A DNA stretch of 64,000 nucleotides from Rhizobium sp. CIAT894 (GTDB taxonomy: Bacteria > Pseudomonadota > Alphaproteobacteria > Rhizobiales > Rhizobiaceae), in NCBI RefSeq assembly GCF_000172795.2, contig NZ_CP020947.1, positions 2,669,001-2,733,000 on the forward strand. Direction: 5' to 3'. Both the position numbers and the translations under genes were made by a program. Positions 3,552 to 51,806 of this stretch are shown in pieces (within the stretch, counting starts at the first letter, position 1; the number at the start of each line of letters is the position of its first letter). Below the pieces are notes generated by a model. The model was not told the DNA's origin and made no database searches. It saw only the letters and a program-made list of their open reading frames with translations.

Positions 3552-3613
3552 CGATTTGATGGGGAGCCTGCGGCCGAAGACGGGGTAGGACAAGTGAAGC
3601 CGGGAAAGAGGCG

Positions 3614-5194
3614 TCAGGCCTTGGCCGAGATCGCGCTCAATTCCTCGAGATCGAGGTCCCGTTCCAGTTCGTCTAAGGTCTCGTCGTCGATATCGCCGGC
3701 GCGGTGGAGACGAATGAGTTCCCGGCGCCCCGATGCGACCGCTTCGAGAACGACGTCGAAATGCGCATGCAGGATCGGCACATAGTGCTCGGTTCTCTCG
3801 GCATAGTCGACGATCGCTGTCGCCCTGCGCTGGTAGCGCTCCAGCAACTGCGGGTGGACGAGCTTTCCCTCTGCGTCATAGGCCAGGTTTTGGACGATCC
3901 CGAACTGCACCTGTGCCATGGCGGCTTCGGCCTGGCTCATGGTGAGGCGCGCCTTTTCCGTCTCCGGCGCCAGCCGCGCCCAGGCGATCACCCGCCCCAA
4001 TGTCGTGCCCTGCACCAGCACGGTTCCAAGAATGACGGCAAAGGAGGTGGCGAGGATGAAGTCACGGCCCGGGAATCCTTCGGGCAGGCTGAGTGCCAGC
4101 GCCAGCGTGACCACGCCGCGCACACCAGCCCAGCTGAGCACTGTCGCACCGCCGGCGCCGAGCGGCTGGGCGCGGGTGAACCCCAGGGCAGCACAGAAGC
4201 GGATGGCAAGATCGGAGGCGAAGACCCAGGCAAACCGCGCCACCACCAGCGTGATCAGGATCGCGAGCATCGGCATTCCCATGGTCGTGATCACGGTGGT
4301 AAGACCGCCGCCGCGTTCGACGACATCCCGGAGCGATAGCCCGATCAATGTGAAGACCGCCGCTTCCATCAGGAAGATCATCACCGTCCAGAACGACGTG
4401 CCTCGCATGCGTGTTGCGGCGGAAAATACGGTGTGCTGGTGCCAGGAGGCGATCAGGCCCGTGGTCACGGTGGCGATGACGCCGGAAACATGAAGCAGTT
4501 CGCCGAGCAGATAGGAAATCCAGCCGAGCAATACGGTGGCTGCGATGATGAGATAATCGTCGCCGAGATGCCGGACGAGTTTGACCCATGCCACTCCGAC
4601 GACGATACCGACGACGGCGCCGCCCAGCGCCAGCACGAAGAAGTTGCCGACCGCCTCCCCTGCACTGAAGGCGCCCGTTGCGGCGGCGGCAACGGCAAAA
4701 CGGAAGAGAACCAGGCCGCTCGCATCATTGAGCAGGCTTTCGCCTTCCAGCAGAATCTGAAGCCGTCGTGGCAGCCTGACGCGCTCCAGCACGGCACGCG
4801 CCGAAACCGCGTCCGGCGGCGCAACGATCGCGCCCAGTGCCGCGCAGGCGGCCCAGGGGAGTGACGGAAAGATAAGATGGGCGACAACGGCCACGACGGC
4901 GCAGGTGAACAACACCGCGCCGACGGCGAGCGAGGCGATGCCGACCATGTGGCGTCTCAACCGCGCCAGAGCGATAGACCAGGCGCCATCCATCAACAGC
5001 GGCGGCAGGAAGATAACCAGCACCAGCTCTGGATCGACTGCTATTGCCGGCAGCCCCGGCACAAACGCCAGCAAAACGCCACCGGTCAGCAGCGCGACGG
5101 ACGGCGGCAATCCGAGCCTGTGGGCGGCATAGTGCAGCGCAATGATCGCGAGAAACATCGCGATGACAAGCTCGAATAAATGGGTTGGTTCCAT
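3614..5194 (-). CDS. CPA1-family Na+/H+ antiporter
   Basis: 526 aa. About 12 hydrophobic segments occupy residues 1-400, followed by a charged cytoplasmic tail of roughly 120 residues. The core motifs of bacterial NhaP/Nhe-type exchangers are present: LPPLLMDGAWS early, GAIVAPPDAVSARAVL, then LLEGESLLNDASGLVLFRF containing the Asn-Asp pair used in cation/proton exchange, and WAGVRGVVTLALALSLP later. It exports Na+ (or K+) against inward protons. The gene is convergent with kup with about 60 bp between them. The cation specificity cannot be read from sequence. Confidence 0.92.
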   Translation of the reverse strand: MEPTHLFELVIAMFLAIIALHYAAHRLGLPPSVALLTGGVLLAFVPGLPAIAVDPELVLVIFLPPLLMDGAWSIALARLRRHMVGIASLAVGAVLFTCAVVAVVAHLIFPSLPWAACAALGAIVAPPDAVSARAVLERVRLPRRLQILLEGESLLNDASGLVLFRFAVAAAATGAFSAGEAVGNFFVLALGGAVVGIVVGVAWVKLVRHLGDDYLIIAATVLLGWISYLLGELLHVSGVIATVTTGLIASWHQHTVFSAATRMRGTSFWTVMIFLMEAAVFTLIGLSLRDVVERGGGLTTVITTMGMPMLAILITLVVARFAWVFASDLAIRFCAALGFTRAQPLGAGGATVLSWAGVRGVVTLALALSLPEGFPGRDFILATSFAVILGTVLVQGTTLGRVIAWARLAPETEKARLTMSQAEAAMAQVQFGIVQNLAYDAEGKLVHPQLLERYQRRATAIVDYAERTEHYVPILHAHFDVVLEAVASGRRELIRLHRAGDIDDETLDELERDLDLEELSAISAKA

Positions 5195-38531: not shown

Positions 38532-38761
38532 GGTCGTAATCCCTTTGAATGGACGGAATGGACGAACCTAGGACGGGCGTGGTTTGACCGATCCGACACC
38601 GGATCGAACTTTTCTTCAAGAAAAATCGCTTGGGCTCACGGTCGCTGGACTGCGCAGCCTGACCAGGAACGGATGTCGGGCGCGCTTTAGCCTCTGTGAG
38701 ATTTGACGCTAAGGTGTATGAAGAGACGACGTCGCGTAAGCCCATTCGAGGGACCTGGAAA

Positions 38762-39763
38762 GTGAGCAAACCGAATTACCGGGACATCGCCCGCCATGCC
38801 GGTGTGGGAACTGCGACGGTCGAACGGGTCTTGAACGGGCGTGGGGGTGTTCGCCCCGAACTGGTCGAGAAAGTCGTCTCCGCGGCACGTCGCCTGGATT
38901 ACCCGCGCAAGCTTCCCGAGACCCATCGCGGCCTCCTCAGGATAGAAGTGCTGATGGTTCGTCCGGAAACGAGTTTCTACCGTCGCCTTTCGCATGCTTT
39001 CGAAAGAATTGCCGCCACCCTCGACCCTTTGGTCGTCGTGCACCGCAGCTTTACCGACGAACTGAATCCGGAGGCGATTGCGCGTCGCATCCTGTCGACC
39101 GATCTTTCACGGTCCGGCCTGATCCTTGCGGTGCCGAGCAGCCCGGTGATCAGCGCCGCGGTGGAAAAGGTAAATGCGCAAGGTCTGCCGGTCGTGCACG
39201 TCGTGACCCGCGCCTCCGAGCGCGTCGGCGAATTTATCGGCATCGACAACAATGCCGCCGGCCGAACGGCCGCGCTCTACATCAGCCGAATGGCTGCGCG
39301 GACCGGGCCCGTCATTGCCATCTGCCACCCCATCTATCAGGTGCATCGCGATCGGATCCGCGGCTTCTCAGCCTATTTTCAAGACTATCCCGGCGCCTCC
39401 AGCTTCGAATGGCTGGGATTTGGCGGCGATGAGGAGCGCGCCAGCGCCGATCGCCTGTGGTCGGCGCTGGAGATGTATCCCGACCTTGCCGGTCTCTACA
39501 ATGCCGGCGGCGCCAACTCCGCCCTGATCGAGGTGCTGCGCCGGCATCCGCGCGGCCGTGATGTCTTTTTCGTCGGGCACGAATTGACCGAATATACGCG
39601 CGCGGCTTTGCAGGACGGCATCATGGATGTGGTGCTGGACCAGGCGCCGGAGGCGCAGGCGCGCCGCGCGCTCGATCTCGTTCTGAACAGAATCGGCTTG
39701 ACCGACATCAAACCGGACCAGGCACCGATCCGTTTCATTACCATCACCAAGGAAGGGCTTTGA
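38762..39763 (+). CDS. LacI-family transcriptional regulator
   Basis: 333 aa from GTG 38762; the frame continues upstream to 38696, but the HTH begins here. The N-terminal HTH (NYRDIARHAGVGTATVERVLNGRGGV) has the expected LacI form with T-V-E-R-V-L-N in place of TVSRVLN. It is followed by a periplasmic-binding-protein-like effector domain (SGLILAVPSS, VVHVVTRASERVGEFIGIDNNAAGR, GLYNAGGANSALIEVL, FVGHELTEYTRAAL). The fit is closest to regulators of the type-2 sugar-binding class. No sugar transport or catabolic genes are adjacent, so the regulon is unknown. Confidence 0.88.
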   Translation: MSKPNYRDIARHAGVGTATVERVLNGRGGVRPELVEKVVSAARRLDYPRKLPETHRGLLRIEVLMVRPETSFYRRLSHAFERIAATLDPLVVVHRSFTDELNPEAIARRILSTDLSRSGLILAVPSSPVISAAVEKVNAQGLPVVHVVTRASERVGEFIGIDNNAAGRTAALYISRMAARTGPVIAICHPIYQVHRDRIRGFSAYFQDYPGASSFEWLGFGGDEERASADRLWSALEMYPDLAGLYNAGGANSALIEVLRRHPRGRDVFFVGHELTEYTRAALQDGIMDVVLDQAPEAQARRALDLVLNRIGLTDIKPDQAPIRFITITKEGL

Positions 39764-39976: not shown

Positions 39977-41629
39977 ATGCGGAAAATTCGTGCGGCCCGC
40001 TCGGCCCTCGGAAAAACGGAGGCAAAAGCTTTGAGCTCGATCGACCGGCTTTTGTTCTTCGACCGCGATTTCAATCCCGTCGAGAATTTGCTGGGCAATG
40101 AGCTGCCTGCATCCGTCAAACCAGCCGCGTCGTTTTGGGAGCATTTTGCAGGATTGGACAAATCGGCGCTGACGCTGGCTTTCTCTTCCATGGGCGAGAG
40201 TGCCCAGCCTTTGCGGATATTTGCCGATCCCGGCAGGCCCGGGTCGCGCGGACTGACGATTTATCGGATCGGAGATCTCTATGCGGTGGTTCGCTCCGAG
40301 GAACCCATCGACGATGAGCGGGCAACCCTTTTGCATCTCGCCACCCACGATCCGCTGACCGGACTGCCGAACCGACGCCAGTTCAGCGACGACCTCACCG
40401 ACCTTTTGCGGGAGACCGCAGGCACCAACGAGACCCTGTCTCTGATGCAGCTCGATCTTGACGATTTCAAACCGGTGAACGACACGCTCGGGCATGCGGC
40501 TGGAGACAAGCTTCTTCAATTCGCGGCAAGGCGTATTCAGGGCTGCCTTGCCGCTGACGACAGAGCCTACCGACTGGCGGGTGATGAATTCACCGTCATT
40601 TCCATGGGTTCGGGGCATCCGGCCAAGGCCCACCGTTTGGCGGAAGCTTTGGTTGCCGCGTTCAAAAAGCCCTTCACGATCGATGGCATCACGGTCTTTG
40701 TCGGCACCAGCATTGGCATATCGACCGCTCCCCCGGACGGGACAAGCCCGGAGCAGCTCATGAAAGCCTCCGACCTCGCGCTCTACGCCGCGAAGAAAGA
40801 GGGGCGCGGCCGGGCAAGCGCGTTTGATGCCTCCATGCTTGAATTGCTGGAGCAGCGTGAACTGCTGCGCCGCAGCCTTCGCATGGCCCTGGTCCAGCAG
40901 GAATTCTTCGTCGAGTACCAGCCCATCGCCGAGGGCGGCTGCATCGTCGGCTTCGAGGCATTGCTGAGGTGGCACCACCCTCTGCTGGGAAATATCCCTC
41001 CCGTGACATTCATTCCGATGGCCGAGGCCGATGGAATGATGCCCGATATAGGTGCGTGGGTTCTGGAGCAGGCATGCCGCGAGGCAATGAAGTGGCCTGA
41101 GAATTACATCGTTGCGGTCAATGTGTCGGCGGCCGAATTCCTGACGAGCGGCCTCACGGATCGGATATCCCAGACCCTGGACCTGGTCGGCTTGCCGCCC
41201 GATCGTCTGGAACTGGAGATCACCGAAAGCGTGCTGCTGGAGCGGACCGTCAATAACATCGATACGCTGAATACGCTCAACGTGCTGGGGATACGCATCT
41301 CGCTCGATGATTTCGGGACCGAATATTCTTCCCTGAGCTATCTGAAGACATTCCCTTTCGACACGATCAAAATCGACAAATACTTCATCACCGATCTCGA
41401 AAGCGATCCGAAAAGTCAGACGATCGTCCGCTGCATCGTCAACCTCGCACATGGTCTCGACATGCAGGTGACGGCCGAAGGTGTTGAAACGCCGGCTCAA
41501 GCGGAATGGCTGCGCAATGTGGGCTGCGACAGGCTTCAAGGTTATCTGGTGAGCAGGCCGCTTCCGGTCGAGGCAATCGGCGAGTTCATCTCCCGGGCGG
41601 AAACATCTGTGCGGCACGCTCTGTCATAG
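39977..41629 (+). CDS. GGDEF-EAL protein, first gene of the partner-switching locus
   Basis: 550 aa. Residues ~1-115 are an unassigned sensory segment (FDRDFNPVENLLGNELPASV...). The GGDEF domain (~120-290) has the variant active site AYRLAGDEFTVI with Ala for the first Gly. The EAL domain (~300-545) carries FEALLRW, the metal Asn in AVNVSAAEF, ELEITES, the catalytic DD in SLDDFGTEYSS, IKIDKYF and AEGVETPAQ, so phosphodiesterase residues are complete; loop 6 has Glu where Gly is usual. It is probably a c-di-GMP phosphodiesterase with a reduced or regulatory GGDEF. It is followed after 67 bp by the HATPase gene. Confidence 0.9.
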   Translation: MRKIRAARSALGKTEAKALSSIDRLLFFDRDFNPVENLLGNELPASVKPAASFWEHFAGLDKSALTLAFSSMGESAQPLRIFADPGRPGSRGLTIYRIGDLYAVVRSEEPIDDERATLLHLATHDPLTGLPNRRQFSDDLTDLLRETAGTNETLSLMQLDLDDFKPVNDTLGHAAGDKLLQFAARRIQGCLAADDRAYRLAGDEFTVISMGSGHPAKAHRLAEALVAAFKKPFTIDGITVFVGTSIGISTAPPDGTSPEQLMKASDLALYAAKKEGRGRASAFDASMLELLEQRELLRRSLRMALVQQEFFVEYQPIAEGGCIVGFEALLRWHHPLLGNIPPVTFIPMAEADGMMPDIGAWVLEQACREAMKWPENYIVAVNVSAAEFLTSGLTDRISQTLDLVGLPPDRLELEITESVLLERTVNNIDTLNTLNVLGIRISLDDFGTEYSSLSYLKTFPFDTIKIDKYFITDLESDPKSQTIVRCIVNLAHGLDMQVTAEGVETPAQAEWLRNVGCDRLQGYLVSRPLPVEAIGEFISRAETSVRHALS

Positions 41630-41696
41630 CGAACAACCGATTTTTCGCCGTGCCTTTGGCTATCGCAAGCATCAGCCTGAGGCCCGGGGGCAACTG

Positions 41697-42188
41697 ATGG
41701 AGGGTGGATTGGAAGAGAAGGCTTCTGGCTTCGACGACCATGCATTCGTGCCGATGGTCTCGCTCGAAATGAACCTTGCGATGTTCAAATCCCGGTGGCA
41801 GCTTTGCGACGGGATTACGGAATATCTCTCCGAAATCCTGGGCCAAAGCCACAGCGATCCCGCTCGATACACCAATTTTCTTTCCGTCGCGGCAAACGAG
41901 CTCGTCGAACTCGCATTCCGTTCGACCAGAGCGCCCGGAAGGATACATTTCGGCCTCTATCGGAGCGAAACAGTCAATCGGCTGAGAATTGCCTTCCCGT
42001 GCGAGGACACATTCGACCGCCGGCCGGTGGCCGTCGCCCGGTCTGGAGACCCGGTCATGAAGCCCGAAGAAACAGTCCTGCTCCGAGATTTGGCGACCAT
42101 ATTCCGCGCCGCGATCCGAATTGAAGAGGACGAGACGCACGGAATGCAAATCATCGCGGATTTCCCCGCCAGGGAGGATTTCCAATGA
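41697..42188 (+). CDS. Degenerate HATPase (anti-sigma-like) protein
   Basis: 163 aa. The pattern ARYTNFLSVAANELVELAFR corresponds to the N-box helix of GHKL/anti-sigma kinases. The metal-binding Asn of ELxENA is Leu here (residue ~72, NELVELA), so ATP binding or kinase activity may be lost. A strand-rich middle (GRIHFGLYRSETVNRLRIAF) and a C-terminal GMQIIADF complete the small alpha/beta fold. It overlaps the next gene by 4 bp (ATGA), so the two are coupled. By position it is the antagonist partner of the STAS-methyltransferase. Assignment rests on pattern and context. Confidence 0.6.
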   Translation: MEGGLEEKASGFDDHAFVPMVSLEMNLAMFKSRWQLCDGITEYLSEILGQSHSDPARYTNFLSVAANELVELAFRSTRAPGRIHFGLYRSETVNRLRIAFPCEDTFDRRPVAVARSGDPVMKPEETVLLRDLATIFRAAIRIEEDETHGMQIIADFPAREDFQ

Positions 42189-43357
42189 ACATGCTTTCCC
42201 TGCCCTTTTCCGTGCATTTCGATCCGACCAATCAGGAACTCTTGCTATCGGGCAAGATGCGGCCCGAGAGCGCCGGCGAGATTGCCGATGTATTGAAGCT
42301 GGTGCGGCAAAGTTTGGAAAAATACAGCGGCGTCGTTTATCTCAATGTCAAACGCCTGACGCACATCAACATGACCGCCTTCGCCGCCTTGTCCGATGTC
42401 CTGGCGGCAAGCTGCCGGGCCAGGCCGGATCGCAGGATCGTCATCATCACCTCGAGCGTGGTGGCATGGTCGACCTCGCTGTTCGAGACCCTGGTCGCCG
42501 CACAGCCAAACCTGTCGGTCGAAGTCTACGATTCGGCATTTTATCCGGGCCAGAGCTTCGTCGAGGATGAGAGTTTCATTCCCATCCTGCGCACCCAGAC
42601 GAAAATGACATGGCGGCACGAACGCGAACTGCTGCCTCTCCACGGCCTGCGCAACGGCCTTGCCATTGCCGACATCTGCTGCGGAATTGGCGACTTCGCC
42701 GCCCTCGTCCAGCGGGAATTCAAACCGTCGCGGCTTGTCGCGCTGGATCATTCCGTGCGCAGCCTCGACTATGCGCGCAAGGTCGCTGCCGATTTCGATC
42801 TGCAGGGGATCGAATACACCTATGGCGACGCCTCGCAAATGCTGCTTCGAGACAACCAGTTCGACTTTGTCACCTGCCGGCATTCGCTGCAGATTTTCGA
42901 CCGTCCTGAGATGCTGCTCCGGGAGCTTTACCGCATCTGCAAACCAGGCGGCCGTGTCTACATCACCAACGAGAAAAATTCGCATTGCCTGGGCGAGCCG
43001 CACGCCGAAACGATAAAATGGACTTACGAGGAGGTCGCAAAACTGTTCAGCCACTTCCACATGGATGTCGAGATGGGGCCGAAAAGCCGGCATCTGCTCG
43101 CCGATGCCGGCTTCGACGCCATCAAGGTCGACTGCTTCATGGTGACCAACCTGGACGGGGATCCGCAGGACTTCGCAGACATCATCGAAGCCTGGGAAAA
43201 TGTCTACGCCGGTGAGATGGCCGTCCGGCGGGGCGACTCCGTGGAATTCATTCGCAGGTTCCGGCAGGGCTTCAGGGATCACATCTTTGCCGCTCTTCAC
43301 CCCAAGGGTTATGCGGGCTGGCCGATCTGGGCCGCGTCCGGACGAAAGCCGCTGTAA
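42185..43357 (+). CDS. STAS domain-methyltransferase fusion
   Basis: 390 aa. Residues ~1-110 form a STAS-like domain (LLLSGKMRPESAGEIADVLK, then VVYLNVKRLTHINMTAFAAL). Where anti-sigma antagonists carry the phosphorylated DSSG, this protein has INMTAF, with Thr64 the only hydroxyl residue. Residues ~150-350 are a class I SAM methyltransferase: motif I IADICCGIGDFAALV, acidic VALDHSVRSLDYARK, then GDASQMLLRDNQFDFVTCRH, LQIFDRPEMLLRELYRICKPGG as in UbiE-type enzymes. The last base of its TAA is the first base of the next start codon. It may be a methyltransferase whose activity is switched by binding the neighbouring HATPase; substrate unknown. Confidence 0.85.
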   Translation: MNMLSLPFSVHFDPTNQELLLSGKMRPESAGEIADVLKLVRQSLEKYSGVVYLNVKRLTHINMTAFAALSDVLAASCRARPDRRIVIITSSVVAWSTSLFETLVAAQPNLSVEVYDSAFYPGQSFVEDESFIPILRTQTKMTWRHERELLPLHGLRNGLAIADICCGIGDFAALVQREFKPSRLVALDHSVRSLDYARKVAADFDLQGIEYTYGDASQMLLRDNQFDFVTCRHSLQIFDRPEMLLRELYRICKPGGRVYITNEKNSHCLGEPHAETIKWTYEEVAKLFSHFHMDVEMGPKSRHLLADAGFDAIKVDCFMVTNLDGDPQDFADIIEAWENVYAGEMAVRRGDSVEFIRRFRQGFRDHIFAALHPKGYAGWPIWAASGRKPL

Positions 43358-45714
43358 TGGATGCACGATCATCGAAAAGACCAGCTAGACTGGGCTCGTT
43401 TCGGGCAAAGTTCATCCTGGTCGTCGGTGGGGCCGTCCTCTTCGACTTGCTGGTCAGCGGCGGACTGGCGCTTTGGAACGTTCAGAGGCTATCGCGCGAC
43501 GCAACGCTCGAGGTCGGCCAGGGTCTTGAAGCGGCAAGCCAGGAATATATCCGCACCTATGCAGATTCGACCGCAGCTCAGGTGGGTTTGCTCCTGCGGC
43601 AGGTTCATAACGACGTCGACACGCTGGCCGGTGTGCTGCAGGCGCAGATCGACGATCCCGAACGCAACGCCGACGTCGGGGCCGCAATCGCCCGCACATC
43701 TCCCGGCAGCGTCAGCCTTTCCTACGATCAGAATGGGAGATGGGCTCAGAATGCTCAGGGCTCCGCCTCGGTCGTCAGCGTCTGGGGGTATCTGCTCGGA
43801 CCGGACCACAAGCCGACAGCCGACGTCGAGAGCGATATCCGGACGAGCGCGGTTCTGGATCTCGTTGCGCCGAGCCTGATGCAGCACGGTGCTTCAAAGC
43901 TGCAGATGTATTATATCGGCTCGAAAGAACGACCGATCTTCAGGACAGCACCCTACACCGACCAGGCCCAGACCTTCGACCGGCTTTATCCCGGTCACAA
44001 CGACGCCAATTTCTGGGACTTCTTCTTTCCCGGCCTTTATGAGTCCTGGCAGGGCTGGGCCAAAGACATGAAAACGCGACCGGTCGCCGACGATATCACC
44101 CAGACCGCTCCCTATACCGATGCCATTACCGGCAAGCTGATCGTCAGTTTCTTTCATCCATTGTGGACCGCCGACAGGAAGGATGTCGCCGGGACGGCCG
44201 GCGCCGACATTACGCTCGACCAGCTCGCGCAGACGGTTGAAAATGTCAAAGTGGCCCAGTCCGGTTTCGGATTTCTGGTGATGTCCGACGGCAACGTCGT
44301 CGCGATCAACAGCACGGGCGAAAAAACCCTCGGTCTGCGCTCTGCAAGCGATGCGAGCGGAACCGGAGTGACCGGCCTGGAGCGTTCCCTCAAGGGAAGC
44401 TCTCAGCCGGCGATCGCCAAGCTGGCCCTCGACCGCGAACAGGGTATTCAACATTTGCTGCTGCAGCAGGACGGCAGCGAGGTCCCCTATATCGCGATCG
44501 TGAAGAAACTGCCTGCGACCAATCTCTGGTCCAGCGGCCCGGTCCGCCAGGAAGCGATGTCGCTTGGCGTGGTCGTGCCTGAACGGGAGATCGAAGCCTC
44601 GCTCTATGCGGCCCAGGCCAAGATTTCCGAGGCGACGAACAGGATCGTGCTCTACCAGATTCTGGCGATCCTGATGTCATTGCTGATCGTAACAATCGCG
44701 GTATTTGCCGCCTCGAAACGAATAACCAGCGGAATCAGCGCATTGGCGGGTGCAGCCAAACGCATTCAGGCGAAGGATTATTCGGTCAGGGTGGCCATAA
44801 CAAGCAAGGATGAGGTCGGCGAGGCTGGCGAAGCCTTCAACCGGATGGCCGAAGAGATCAGCTATCACACGGAAAATCTCGAGCAGCTCGTCGAGGAGCG
44901 AACCGCGCAAATCGAGGATGCCAAGGAAGAGATTTCGACGCTGAACGCCCAGCTCCAGCGGGAAAACCGGCGTCTTGGAACGGAGCTCGCCGTCGCCGAG
45001 AGAATCCAGCTGATGGTGCTGCCGCTGGATCAGGAGCTCGAGGCGTTCCAGGCACTCGAGATAGCCGCCTATATGAGACCCGCCGAAGAGGTCGGCGGCG
45101 ATTATTACGACGTCTTGAAGAACGGTAGCCGGCTGAAGATCGGCATCGGCGACGTCACCGGGCACGGGCTCGAAAGCGGCGTGTTGATGTTGATGGTTCA
45201 GTCCGTCGCCCGCGCCCTGCAGGAAGCCGGAAATACCGATGCGGTGAAATTTCTCACAGATCTGAACAGCGCCCTGTTTAAAAATATCGTCAGGACGAAA
45301 ATCGACAAACACCTCACTCTGGCATTTCTTGACTACGACGGAAAAGAGATGATCCTGTCGGGACAACACGAGGAAGTTGTCATCGTGCGGGCAAACGGCA
45401 AGGTCGAGCGCATCAACACCATGGATCTGGGCATTCCGATCGGGCTGGAAGCCGATATCTCAGCCTTCATCAAAACCCGCAAGATCGCATTCGAAAAAGG
45501 GGACCTCATACTTCTGCATACGGATGGCGTCACGGAAGCCGAAAACGACGCCGGAGAGCTGTTCGGCATGGAACGGCTGTGCCGTGAAGCCGTTCGCTTG
45601 AAGGATCTGAGCGCTGAGAAAGTCGTTTCCGAAATTGTCGCGACACTCATGCTCTTTATCGGATCGCAGAAAATCTACGACGACATTACGCTTCTGGCAG
45701 TACGGCATAGGTGA
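43357..45714 (+). CDS. Cache-HAMP-SpoIIE (PP2C) sensor phosphatase
   Basis: 785 aa. TM1 is at residues ~17-40. A large periplasmic double-Cache-type sensor spans ~41-427 (YTDAITGKLIVSFFHPLW, GTAGADITLDQLAQTVENVK are typical). TM2 is at ~430-452, HAMP at ~453-505, a coiled coil at ~505-545 and PP2C from ~545. The metal Asps are in EEVGGDYYDV, IGDVTGHGLESG, LLHTDGVTEAEND and YDDITLLAV. It would dephosphorylate the STAS proteins encoded next to it in response to an extracellular signal, as RsbU/SiaA-type phosphatases do. It overlaps the previous gene by one base and is followed after 3 bp by the next. Confidence 0.93.
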   Translation: MDARSSKRPARLGSFRAKFILVVGGAVLFDLLVSGGLALWNVQRLSRDATLEVGQGLEAASQEYIRTYADSTAAQVGLLLRQVHNDVDTLAGVLQAQIDDPERNADVGAAIARTSPGSVSLSYDQNGRWAQNAQGSASVVSVWGYLLGPDHKPTADVESDIRTSAVLDLVAPSLMQHGASKLQMYYIGSKERPIFRTAPYTDQAQTFDRLYPGHNDANFWDFFFPGLYESWQGWAKDMKTRPVADDITQTAPYTDAITGKLIVSFFHPLWTADRKDVAGTAGADITLDQLAQTVENVKVAQSGFGFLVMSDGNVVAINSTGEKTLGLRSASDASGTGVTGLERSLKGSSQPAIAKLALDREQGIQHLLLQQDGSEVPYIAIVKKLPATNLWSSGPVRQEAMSLGVVVPEREIEASLYAAQAKISEATNRIVLYQILAILMSLLIVTIAVFAASKRITSGISALAGAAKRIQAKDYSVRVAITSKDEVGEAGEAFNRMAEEISYHTENLEQLVEERTAQIEDAKEEISTLNAQLQRENRRLGTELAVAERIQLMVLPLDQELEAFQALEIAAYMRPAEEVGGDYYDVLKNGSRLKIGIGDVTGHGLESGVLMLMVQSVARALQEAGNTDAVKFLTDLNSALFKNIVRTKIDKHLTLAFLDYDGKEMILSGQHEEVVIVRANGKVERINTMDLGIPIGLEADISAFIKTRKIAFEKGDLILLHTDGVTEAENDAGELFGMERLCREAVRLKDLSAEKVVSEIVATLMLFIGSQKIYDDITLLAVRHR

Positions 45715-45717
45715 GAC

Positions 45718-46278
45718 ATGACCCCAACGGTCTACGGCATTGAATCTCTGACCGACATAAGCCTGGATTCCGGCACGCGCCTGACCTTGACGGACGGCCC
45801 GCTTCAACTGGGATGGAAGCACTCGGGAATGACGGCTGACTTTATAGCGCAGGTCATGGCGCTGCAGTATTCGCGTTCGAAGAAAGACTACGTGCAGGCG
45901 CATCATGACATCGGATACCTCAGCAACGAGCTGATCGAAAACGCCGTGAAGTTTCGACAGCCTGGCGAGATCCTCATTGAAGCCAGCATTTTCCAGGAAA
46001 GCTTTATGATTAGGGTGAAAAACACCATCGATGGCGTGACATCCTCTCGCTTTCAGCAATTGCTGCATCGCTTTCAATCGAGGGACCCCGGCGAACTTCT
46101 TCTTGAGCAAATCGAAACCAACGCGATATCGCCGGCAAGCGGTTCGGGCTTGGGATTGCTCACGCTTCTCAGCGACTACGACGCGAAAATGGCCTGGGCA
46201 TTCGAAGGGAGTGATGACCAGCCTGTCATACTGACGACGACTGCAGCCGTGGCGATGCCGCCCTCCTCCAATCCGTGA
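45718..46278 (+). CDS. slr1658-like HATPase regulator
   Basis: 186 aa. The N-box is intact (HHDIGYLSNELIENAVKFRQPG, with Glu71 and Asn75), followed by strand ILIEASIFQESFMIRVKNT and a G-rich block SGSGLGLLTLLSDYDAKMAWAFE, close to the cyanobacterial slr1658 type of anti-sigma kinase. It likely phosphorylates the partner STAS protein or sequesters a target in the cytoplasm. It starts 3 bp after the phosphatase gene and precedes the STAS gene by 7 bp, completing a phosphatase-kinase-antagonist triad. The kinase role is by homology pattern, not shown. Confidence 0.8.
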   Translation: MTPTVYGIESLTDISLDSGTRLTLTDGPLQLGWKHSGMTADFIAQVMALQYSRSKKDYVQAHHDIGYLSNELIENAVKFRQPGEILIEASIFQESFMIRVKNTIDGVTSSRFQQLLHRFQSRDPGELLLEQIETNAISPASGSGLGLLTLLSDYDAKMAWAFEGSDDQPVILTTTAAVAMPPSSNP

Positions 46279-46285
46279 GCGAAGA

Positions 46286-46624
46286 ATGGAAATCAGCGAC
46301 GAAAATTTCCGCGTATGGGCGGAACAAAACGAAGTGTATTTCGACGGCGTCTTCCGGCTGGCCGGACCGGACGCCTATGCACCCATTTATTCATTGATAA
46401 CAGCCCTGCTTCATGAGGGGCACAAACAGGTGATATTCAATCTCACCGGCCTCGAGTTCCTCAATTCCTCGGGCATCAATCTGCTCGCCAAGTTGACGAT
46501 CGAAGCCAGAAAGATGGGCGACCTTCTGCTTGTCGTCAAAGGCACCAATCAATATCCCTGGCAAGCCAAGTCGCTGCCGAACCTCAAGAAGCTGCACCCG
46601 CTTCTCGATTTGCGTTTGGCGTGA
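46286..46624 (+). CDS. slr1659-like STAS (anti-anti-sigma) protein
   Basis: 112 aa. MEISDENFRVWAEQNEVYFD opens the domain; FDGVFRLAGPDAYAPIYSLI and VIFNLTGLEFLNSSGINLLAKLTIEAR are the STAS strand-helix core. The expected phosphoacceptor Ser is in NSSGI (Ser61 or Ser62). The end (QYPWQAKSLPNLKKLHPLLDLRLA) resembles slr1659-type proteins. It is the last gene of the locus; the partner-switching output (diguanylate cyclase, sigma factor or other target) is not evident from the window apart from the GGDEF-EAL gene at the 5' end. Confidence 0.85.
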   Translation: MEISDENFRVWAEQNEVYFDGVFRLAGPDAYAPIYSLITALLHEGHKQVIFNLTGLEFLNSSGINLLAKLTIEARKMGDLLLVVKGTNQYPWQAKSLPNLKKLHPLLDLRLA

Positions 46625-49022: not shown

Positions 49023-51806
49023 TCAAGCCGCCTTTTCAACCACCGGCTCGCGCATCGCCTGCGGCTTTCCGAGCAGATAACCTTGGGCCTCGTCGCACTG
49101 TTCTTCCAGAAGCGTGTCAAGTTGTGCCTGGGTTTCCACGCCTTCCGCCAGAACCGGCACCTCCAGGCTGCGGCCCAGCGCCAGGATGGCGCGGACGATC
49201 GCCTTGGATTGGGCATTGCTTTCGACCTCGGCCATGAAGCTTTTGTCGAGTTTGATCTTGTCGAAGGGGAAGGAGCGCAGCGTTTCCAGCGAGGAATAGC
49301 CGGTGCCGAAATCGTCGATGGCGATCGAGACGCCGAGCGCCTTCATCTCGCGCATGGTGCTGAGCGCCTTGTCCTTGTCGATGATGATGGAGCTTTCGGT
49401 GATCTCGATTTCGAGGCGGCGTGGGTCGAGGCCGGTTTCGGCAAGGATGCCAGCGATCACGGCCGCCATGTCGGCATGGCCGAGCTGGACGGGCGAGAGG
49501 TTGACGGCAATCTTGTGGCCGTTGCTCCAGCTCGCCGCCTCCCGGCAGGCTTCGCGCAGCACCCATTCGCCGATCGGCAGGATGGCGCCGCATTCCTCGG
49601 CAAGACCGATGAAATCCATCGGCGGGATATTGCCGCGCTCGTGATGGCGCCAGCGCAGCAGAACCTCGTAGCCGGTGATCTCTCCCGTCCGCACCGATTT
49701 CTGCACCTGATAATGCAGATGCAGTTCGTTGCGGTCGATGCAGGCCCAGAGATCGTTGGCGAGCGCGCGGCGGCGGCGCGCGGTCTCGTCCATGGCAGCC
49801 TCGTAGAAGCAGACCTTCTGCAGCAGGGATTGTTTGGCGCGGTACATCGCAAGGTCGGCATTGGCGAGAAGCCCGTCGACGCTCTCGGCATCGCTCGGAT
49901 AGATCGCCACCCCAAGGCTGGCGCCGGTCTTGATCTCGAAGCCGTCGACGGAGATCATGCCGACCAGGGCGCCTTCCAGGCGCGCGATGAAATCATGCAA
50001 CGCGCTCAAATCGTCGAAGCGCCTGGTCGCGGCGAACTCGTCTCCGCCGAAGCGGGCGATGAACTCGCCCTCCTGCAGCGCCTCGCCGAGACGGCGCGTC
50101 AGCTCGACCAGCACCATATCGCCGGTGCCGTGCCCGTGCTGGTCGTTGACTTCCTTGAACTTGTCGAGATCGATGCCGATCACCGCAACCTTGCCCCTCA
50201 CCCGGTCGGCGACCATCATCTCCTCGGCGACGCGCTCGCCGAACTGCAGCCGGTTCGGCAGGCCCGTCAGCGCATCGTGCTTGGCGAGGAAAGCAACCTG
50301 CTCCTCGGATTTCACGCGATCGGAAATATCCTCGAAAGTGACGACCCAGCCGCCATTCGGCAGGATGTTGACATGCTGCTGGATGGAGATGCCGCTCGGA
50401 TATTTGTGAACCGCGCTGCCGGCCTCGCCCCTGATCAGCGCCATGTTCCTGATATAATGGGCCTCGGCCCGGGCCGCCGCTTCCGCCGCGTCCTCAGTGT
50501 TGGCGGCATAGCCGATTTCGACAATCTGCCTGTAGTGCATGCCGGGACGCACCGATCCTTCGGGAAATTTGAAGATTTCGAGATAACGCTTGTTGCACAG
50601 CACCAGACGCTCGTCCCCATCGAACATGCAGATGCCCTGCCCCATGTTTTCGAGCGCGACATCGAGATTGCGGGTGACCTCCTCGATCCGGTCGGCATCC
50701 GCCTTCTGCTTGCTGTTATCCTTGGTAATCTTGGCATAGCCGATCAGCGCGCCGGTTTCGTCATAGATCGGGTCGATGACGACATAGGCCCAGAAGGAGG
50801 AGCCGTCCTTGCGGTAACGCCAGCCCTGGGCTTCGAACTTGCCCTCGGTGCGGGCCGTCTGAAGCGCCCGCTGCGGCAGGCCATTGCGGCGATCTTCCTC
50901 AGAATAGAACAGCGAGAAATCCTTGCCGACGATCTCATCGGCGCTATAACCCTTGGCGCGCTCGGCGCCGGCATTCCAGTTGCTGACCTTGCCATCCGGA
51001 TCGAGCATGTAGATCGCGTAGTCGGTCACGCCTTGGACCAGGAGCTTGAAATTGCGCTCCGCCCCGGCGGTCTTGGCCTCCGAGCGCACGGCGAAGATGG
51101 CGGCGGCAAAACCGGCCGCCAGCAGCGAAAAGGTGACGGCGGCAATCGTCACCACCATGACACCAGGCGAAAGCAGCGTCGCGGGATCGAGCGATACCAC
51201 GCCCGGCGTGACGGTAACGCCCGCCATCGCGGTGAAATGCAGTGCGACGACCCCTGATGTCAACAGAAGTGTGGGCGCAAGCCCGCGCAAGATCGGCCGC
51301 TCGCCCCTGCCCGCAAAGCGAAAGGCGGCGACCGAAAAGGCGATACCGAGAACGATCGACGCCGTCACGAACTGCGCGTCCCAGGAAATCTCTCCCGGGA
51401 ATTCGATGGCCAGCATGCCGGTAAAATGCATCGACGCGATGCCGGCGCCGAAGAGCACGCCGGCCAGAATATTCGCCATCCACCTGTCATAGCCGATTTT
51501 CGCCGCAACCGCGCCCGTCGTCGCCACGATCGCTACCAGCAGCGAGACCAGCGTCAGCCCGGCATGATAGCCGACGACGACACCGGGATCATAAGCCAGC
51601 ATGGCGACGAAATGCGTCGCCCAGATCCCGAATCCACCCGCCGCCCCCGCCGTCAGCAGCCATACCCACCGCGCAGCACCCGCGGACGACGTCGCCCGAT
51701 CGAGCAGAACCATCGCGCAATGGCTGGCGAGAAAGCAGATCAAACCCGCAAGCCCGACCAGCGCGAGATCATGCTGCTCGGTGATGCATGTCAGAACGGT
51801 GAACAT
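49023..51806 (-). CDS. MHYT-PAS-GGDEF-EAL sensor
   Basis: 927 aa. Residues ~1-240 hold seven TM segments with the MHYT repeats ATHFVAM, SMHFTGM and LHFTAM, an integral-membrane sensor thought to bind metal or a gas. PAS domains follow (~255-370, DYAIYMLDPDGKVSNWNAGA; ~385-500, LENMGQGICMFDGDERLVLCN). GGDEF (~510-670) has the intact ARFGGDEF. EAL (~680-920) reads YEVLLRW (EVL in place of EAL), with AVNLSPVQL, EIEITES, AIDDFGTGYSS, KLDKSF and AEGVETQAQ all present. It is probably a bifunctional c-di-GMP enzyme or phosphodiesterase. It is the last core-type gene before the accessory region. Confidence 0.93.
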   Translation of the reverse strand: MFTVLTCITEQHDLALVGLAGLICFLASHCAMVLLDRATSSAGAARWVWLLTAGAAGGFGIWATHFVAMLAYDPGVVVGYHAGLTLVSLLVAIVATTGAVAAKIGYDRWMANILAGVLFGAGIASMHFTGMLAIEFPGEISWDAQFVTASIVLGIAFSVAAFRFAGRGERPILRGLAPTLLLTSGVVALHFTAMAGVTVTPGVVSLDPATLLSPGVMVVTIAAVTFSLLAAGFAAAIFAVRSEAKTAGAERNFKLLVQGVTDYAIYMLDPDGKVSNWNAGAERAKGYSADEIVGKDFSLFYSEEDRRNGLPQRALQTARTEGKFEAQGWRYRKDGSSFWAYVVIDPIYDETGALIGYAKITKDNSKQKADADRIEEVTRNLDVALENMGQGICMFDGDERLVLCNKRYLEIFKFPEGSVRPGMHYRQIVEIGYAANTEDAAEAAARAEAHYIRNMALIRGEAGSAVHKYPSGISIQQHVNILPNGGWVVTFEDISDRVKSEEQVAFLAKHDALTGLPNRLQFGERVAEEMMVADRVRGKVAVIGIDLDKFKEVNDQHGHGTGDMVLVELTRRLGEALQEGEFIARFGGDEFAATRRFDDLSALHDFIARLEGALVGMISVDGFEIKTGASLGVAIYPSDAESVDGLLANADLAMYRAKQSLLQKVCFYEAAMDETARRRRALANDLWACIDRNELHLHYQVQKSVRTGEITGYEVLLRWRHHERGNIPPMDFIGLAEECGAILPIGEWVLREACREAASWSNGHKIAVNLSPVQLGHADMAAVIAGILAETGLDPRRLEIEITESSIIIDKDKALSTMREMKALGVSIAIDDFGTGYSSLETLRSFPFDKIKLDKSFMAEVESNAQSKAIVRAILALGRSLEVPVLAEGVETQAQLDTLLEEQCDEAQGYLLGKPQAMREPVVEKAA

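Follow-up and report, generated by a model that had tools for sequence, protein, structure and literature searches.

A six-gene partner-switching locus of Rhizobium sp. CIAT894, a probable counterpart of the Sinorhizobium meliloti bgr operon, with a constant pair of putative pseudokinase and STAS-methyltransferase

The stretch of DNA analysed here (64,000 nucleotides of contig NZ_CP020947.1 from Rhizobium sp. CIAT894; hereafter the window) contains a locus of six genes, A to F, which combines the components of a partner-switching system with a cyclic di-GMP (c-di-GMP) enzyme and a methyltransferase. The list of open reading frames (ORFs) bears out the first-pass annotation, made from the sequence of the window, in that all six are encoded on the plus strand, between positions 39977 and 46624. 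Gene A (39977..41629, +) codes for a GGDEF-EAL protein of 550 amino acids (E-values of 1.5e-43 for GGDEF and 1.1e-71 for EAL), and gene B (41697..42188, +) for a degenerate HATPase of the slr1658 type, a putative pseudokinase of 163 amino acids. In the product of gene C (42185..43357, +; 390 amino acids), a STAS domain of the slr1659 type (approximately residues 8-115; NF047705, E-value 5e-10) is fused to a class I S-adenosylmethionine (SAM) methyltransferase (Methyltransf_11, E-value 1.7e-18), as had been claimed. Gene D (43357..45714, +; 785 amino acids) encodes a predicted sensor phosphatase with the architecture dCache-HAMP-PP2C (SpoIIE), supported by E-values of 6.8e-37 for SpoIIE, 9.5e-12 for HAMP and 9.8e-8 for dCache_1, the last of these matches being one of 32 bits, below the Pfam cut-off of 45. 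Gene E (45718..46278, +; 186 amino acids) encodes an intact slr1658-type HATPase, likely a kinase (NF047703), and gene F (46286..46624, +; 112 amino acids) an slr1659-type STAS protein with the phospho-Ser motif NSSG (NF047705). Genes A and B are separated by 67 bp, B and C overlap by 4 bp, C and D overlap by 1 bp, and gaps of 3 bp and 7 bp lie between D and E and between E and F, respectively; the statement that most of the genes overlap or lie within 8 bp of each other holds at four of the five junctions, all except A-B.

The six genes are a linked unit, more than a chance arrangement. We compared 80 loci, the best 80 of 213 matches of the STAS-methyltransferase in a collection with one genome per species, and found all six genes in the same order and on the same strand in 79 of these 80 Rhizobiaceae loci; in the sole exception (L040), E and F fall beyond the end of the contig. 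Because the set is the best of 213, this count leans towards near relatives; the whole-genome samples of the order, class, phylum and family used below are less biased. The proposed linkage stands, and no loss of synteny was seen in close relatives. Genes B and C overlap in 79/80 loci and C and D in 79/79 (with start codons chosen by a script), while the ORFs that flank the unit in five reference loci were found again in at most 21 of the 80. The ratio of nonsynonymous to synonymous substitutions (dN/dS) of the six genes ranges from 0.03 to 0.29 in five comparisons, and the product of gene C is among the two best conserved proteins across the 80 loci. Gene C also occurs on plasmids in Sinorhizobium, Aminobacter and others (120 records), and each of the three records inspected carries all six genes.

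On pSymB of S. meliloti 1021 all six homologues are present in the same order (L082). In this species, Baena et al. (2019, Environ Microbiol 21:3379) reportedly identified SMb20447 as bgrR, the leading gene of a hexacistronic operon which occurs in many rhizobia, and proposed that unphosphorylated BgrV inhibits BgrR. Genes A to F of the window occupy the positions of bgrR, bgrS, bgrT, bgrU, bgrW and bgrV, respectively. According to the sections of PMC8457831 (eLife 2021) that concern this system (citing Baena et al.), the BgrSTUWV partner-switching system of S. meliloti modulates the cyclase BgrR, and the corresponding sections of PMC7647112 (PLoS One 2020) state that BgrV phosphorylation, and hence the control of BgrR, is set by BgrU and BgrW in the synthesis of mixed-linkage glucan. 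In these sections of both papers BgrU figures as a phosphatase, BgrW as a kinase, BgrV as a STAS protein and BgrR as a diguanylate cyclase. The letter order R-S-T-U-W-V fits genes A to F, since the phosphatase comes fourth, the kinase fifth and the STAS protein sixth; the two systems are alike in having six genes in one order, with phosphatase, kinase, STAS protein and cyclase at matching positions. It is probable that the window operon is the Rhizobium orthologue of S. meliloti bgrRSTUWV, and this, together with the model for B and C developed below, is as a whole the best explanation of the locus. The first-pass annotation knew of no description of the combined layout. As the layout is itself a described operon, whose gene set has been characterised in S. 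meliloti (BgrR/BgrSTUWV; the Bgr sections of PMC8457831 and PMC7647112), the finding as first worded is not new. On the other hand, no description of the roles of bgrS and bgrT was found in those parts of the literature on Bgr, on slr1658/slr1659, on STAS-methyltransferases and on glucan that we searched; none of the terms sought is present in the STAS review PMC8256260, and the sections consulted of the papers on S. fredii and R. etli (PMC8546604, PMC9495663) yielded no description of the operon.

Genes E and F bear the marks of an intact switch. Both pass the curated cut-off of 100 bits of the NCBIfam models for the slr1658 and slr1659 superfamily regulators, E with 166.8 bits (NF047703, E-value 3e-49) and F with 122.3 bits (NF047705, E-value 1e-35). 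Motifs were counted in 80-81 sequences and in 18 further loci, with L142-L149 left out. Rows with a stop were kept in the former counts, as the motif precedes the stop, while the joint alignments behind the latter exclude eight such rows; alignment A4 took in 43 of 50 chosen sequences and A5 24 of 25. The Mg-binding Asn of the N box of E is present in 80/80 and 18/18 sequences and the SGLG box in 80/80, with a different G box in one of the further loci (L132). The acceptor motif LNSSG of F is likewise found in 80/80 and 18/18, and the motif GGDYYD of D in 80/80. A comparable acceptor is described in the relevant parts of PMC7647112 and PMC8457831 for SiaC of Pseudomonas aeruginosa, which is phosphorylated at T68 (peptide LLYLNTSSIK), the residue directly after the same Asn as in F, and whose phosphorylation blocks its binding to SiaD. 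According to the same sources, a PP2C phosphatase and a kinase set the phosphorylation of a STAS protein and thereby control a c-di-GMP enzyme both in BgrU/BgrW/BgrV and in SiaA/SiaB/SiaC. With all these motifs in place, a periplasmic signal sensed by D would set its PP2C domain, D would remove the phosphate that kinase E places on the Ser of F, and the phosphorylation state of F would decide its binding partner, one of which, in Rhizobiaceae, may be the GGDEF-EAL enzyme A, as published for BgrV and BgrR. By this analogy we infer that D, E, F and A work like BgrU, BgrW, BgrV and BgrR.

The pair B-C is of another kind. Gene B contains no Pfam domain and matches the slr1658 superfamily weakly (E-value 9e-4); on the NCBIfam models with their cut-off of 100 bits, B scores 18.7 and the STAS domain of C 39.6 bits, both below it, and their relatives score 31-51 bits. 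Profile comparison relates B to E (hhalign probability 91, E-value 1.1e-6), and the predicted model of B has a fold like that of the anti-sigma kinases UsfX, RsbW and SpoIIAB. B and the STAS domain of C are homologues of slr1658 and slr1659 by profile and fold, not members by cut-off, and the first-pass claim of two HATPase-STAS pairs is upheld in this sense, by the model cut-offs for E-F and by profile comparison and fold for B-C. The Asn of the N box, which binds Mg and ATP, is found in none of the 81 B sequences and none of the 18 further ones, and the position of C equivalent to the phospho-Ser is occupied by Met, Asn, Ala or another residue in 75/81. In most members, B-C consequently does not duplicate the phosphorylation switch; judged from these residues, it is a pair without phosphorylation chemistry, yet with a conserved enzyme, as the SAM motif CCG[IV]GD of C is present in 81/81. 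The solved structures closest in sequence to the methyltransferase part of C are 3mgg, BH2331 and phosphoethanolamine methyltransferases, and among models the UbiE type is closest; our guess is that the methyl acceptor would be a small molecule. The label "ubiquinone biosynthesis methyltransferase UbiE" carried by gene B in S. meliloti (CP050512.1, HB773_18260) and Aminobacter (Amn_RS29760) is not supported by its sequence.

The whole-genome samples reveal which of these components are constant. Of 297 genomes in the sample of the order, 12 gave matches to gene C (E-values to 1e-25), and the same 12, with no others, gave matches to gene F (E-values to 1e-8); among 385 genomes of the class, C and F each occur in four, again the same genomes. 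In the order of genome G362, seven of 28 genomes contain gene C, all from one genus. slr1659 is rare in the phylum (7/299 genomes), six of the seven carrying F together with C and the remaining one being the genome of locus L102, described below. These genome counts follow kinship and do not represent independent events. Among 26 whole-genome loci (18, with L102 left out, and eight further ones; L133, L134, L135 and L142 repeat L036, L047, L019 and L074 of the 80-locus set), none lacks B, C or D, one shows no E and F because its sequence stops within D (L149), and only 11 contain A. The 15 loci without A comprise all those of f134 (seven), f6 (two) and f8 (three), and three of f1. In 13 of them a second PP2C gene, oriented divergently, lies upstream, detected as weak tblastn matches of D with 22-30% identity (L103, at 3613-4578 on the minus strand; L104, L105, L122, L123, L125, L128-L131 and L147-L149); no such gene was seen in the other two (L126, L127), nor in the 11 loci with A. 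At its N-terminus at least ten of the 13 (L103, L104, L105, L122, L123, L125, L128, L129, L131 and L147) carry a segment like DDLxLLYEATIEHGEAVEDQL, which, compared by eye, resembles the stretch DDLELALQTAIDHGDAIEEQL of the SiaD-like cyclase in L102. Near the second PP2C gene an RsbW-like HATPase ORF was also read by eye in L122, L123 and L125, and in L125 a STAS-like ORF. As no genome of the order and class samples has C without F or F without C, and A is missing from 15 of the 26 loci, the c-di-GMP branch is optional and the pair of putative pseudokinase and methyltransferase is constant. That B-C-D-E-F is the constant core is the new result of this analysis; a constant c-di-GMP branch, as first assumed, is at odds with it, B and C being missing from none of the 26.

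Gene A itself retains AGDEF in 80/80 and EAL in 79/80 sequences, and the Gly that follows DFGT in the loop-6 consensus of the EAL domain is replaced in 80/80; this loss fits a protein that would act mainly as a cyclase. In the window, 213 bp separate A from the end of a LacI-family regulator gene (38696-39763, +) that precedes it in the same orientation, and a second c-di-GMP gene, encoding an MHYT-PAS-PAS-GGDEF-EAL protein of 927 amino acids (49023-51806, -), lies near the operon; L133 and L135 also show a GGDEF-EAL match downstream of the operon, on the opposite strand. The S. meliloti glycosyltransferase used as query, which we take to be BgsA, has orthologues (78-86% identity) in three of 101 family genomes, all among the ten that carry gene C, and eight more genomes of this sample gave only matches of 37-42%. 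In genome G981 gene A and the BgsA orthologue (86%) are divergently oriented and 1.9 kb apart (L142, 8266-13731), an observation which links operon and glucan synthase directly; a glycosyltransferase/HlyD pair, presumably bgsAB, is found about 52 kb from the operon in S. meliloti RCAM1750. Unlike the Bgr locus, that of the window stands in a genome where no BgsA orthologue was found, the best match being 34%, which makes mixed-linkage glucan an unlikely output there. The Bgr operon has reportedly been seen in non-producers of mixed-linkage glucan too, and the system probably serves something besides glucan as well.

How the constant pair might be coupled to the switch can be pictured as follows. 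B would keep the fold of an anti-sigma kinase, without its ATP residues, and in most members would form an unphosphorylated pair with C, the STAS-methyltransferase that it most likely holds. F, in one of its phosphorylation states, could compete for B, whereby methyl transfer would be released or activated and would follow the same signal, with C staying unphosphorylated. It is tempting to go further and to regard methyl transfer, not c-di-GMP, as the constant and perhaps ancestral output, read from F through partner exchange by pseudokinase B and a phosphorylation-blind C, while the other output slot is exchangeable (GGDEF-EAL in 11/26 loci, the second PP2C in 13 of the other 15); we put this extension forward tentatively, as a possibility that may well prove wrong. 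Several observations weigh against the explanation of the locus as a bgr operon with an unphosphorylated B-C pair. The pSymB locus is assumed to be bgr from gene roles and letter order; no SiaD-like stalk was recognised in gene A; and Foldseek ranked the histidine kinase CpxA (E-value 1.4e-4) above RsbW (3.8e-4) and UsfX (4.5e-4) as a match of the B model. In addition, C has Ser at the acceptor position in 6/81 sequences (and in one of the 18 further loci, on the same contig as L047) and Thr at the next position in 80/81, although in only four of the 18, where Val, Ile, Leu or Ala occupy it in the remaining 14; because of these residues C may be phosphorylated in some members.

Among the alternatives, the one that survives best holds that B-C is a structural or allosteric subunit, a scaffold or timer, of the D-E-F switch, that methyl transfer is the sole output and that A merely shares the operon. 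The absence of A from 15/26 loci, the fact that C and F are never apart in the order and class samples, and the strong conservation of C all speak for it, but the Bgr sections of PMC8457831 and PMC7647112 place BgrR under BgrV in S. meliloti, and A lies directly upstream of the unit in 80/80 loci of the 80-locus set, so that we consider it rather unlikely. Even less probable, in our opinion, is the original interpretation that D dephosphorylates both STAS proteins and that two parallel phosphorylation switches split one signal into c-di-GMP turnover and methyl transfer. Both pairs do belong to one family and one operon, and the Ser and Thr residues just mentioned would provide acceptors in some C proteins; however, the acceptor Ser of C is lost in 75/81 and the N-box Asn of B in all 81 and all 18, and the adjacent Thr is absent from 14/18 further loci. 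What remains of that interpretation is a partner-switching locus with two pairs, a c-di-GMP enzyme, a STAS-methyltransferase and conserved synteny; the ideas of an undescribed layout, of a constant c-di-GMP branch and of a phosphatase with the same action on the two STAS proteins find no support, the N-box Asn of E and the phospho-Ser of F being kept in all sequences checked and their counterparts in B and C being lost in all and in most sequences, respectively. Finally, that B and C are functionless, decaying duplicates of E and F, as the loss of catalytic residues in both and the fast evolution of B (64-71% identity versus 90-92% for C in four of five comparisons) could suggest, is already disfavoured and highly improbable in view of the dN/dS of 0.15-0.29 for B and 0.05-0.09 for C, the lack of broken copies in the 80-locus set (where two B translations from the 18 further loci contain stops, the alignment had been carried beyond the true stop), and the conservation of C over its SAM motif and its unfailing association with F in the order sample.

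The preferred reading, a bgr-type operon with an unphosphorylated B-C pair, shifts attention to the two genes that take the places of bgrS and bgrT, which are missing from no locus examined, while the c-di-GMP gene often is. A putative pseudokinase and an apparently phospho-blind STAS-methyltransferase, always present, are the part most worth experiment. They raise the question whether partner switching can control an enzyme through protein exchange, without phosphorylation of its STAS domain, and they point to a putative methylation product in nitrogen-fixing symbionts.

Among the known partner-switching systems, SiaABCD of P. aeruginosa (relevant parts of PMC7647112 and PMC8457831) resembles the window locus in that it, too, combines a PP2C sensor and an HATPase kinase with a GGDEF enzyme and a STAS-like phosphoprotein whose acceptor residue directly follows the same Asn. 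It differs in having one kinase and one STAS-like protein, in DUF1987 in place of slr1659, and in the absence of a methyltransferase; the SiaA model gives 112.4 bits with D (cut-off 700) and the SiaB model 19.1 bits with E (cut-off 85), both far below. As far as the same parts of these papers describe it, the HptB-HsbR-HsbA-HsbD system of P. aeruginosa is similar in that a STAS protein controls a diguanylate cyclase. A simpler arrangement is found at L102 (4485-9140, minus strand), from another class of the phylum. It has a single slr1658/slr1659 pair, whose kinase, at 253 bits, exceeds the cut-off of 200 set for the cyanobacterial slr1658 model. The pair is accompanied by a dCache-like PP2C, a gene resembling those of periplasmic binding proteins, and a SiaD-like cyclase that reaches 147.7 of the 290 bits required by the SiaD model. 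Neither B nor C was found in this set, in contrast to the two pairs of the window locus.

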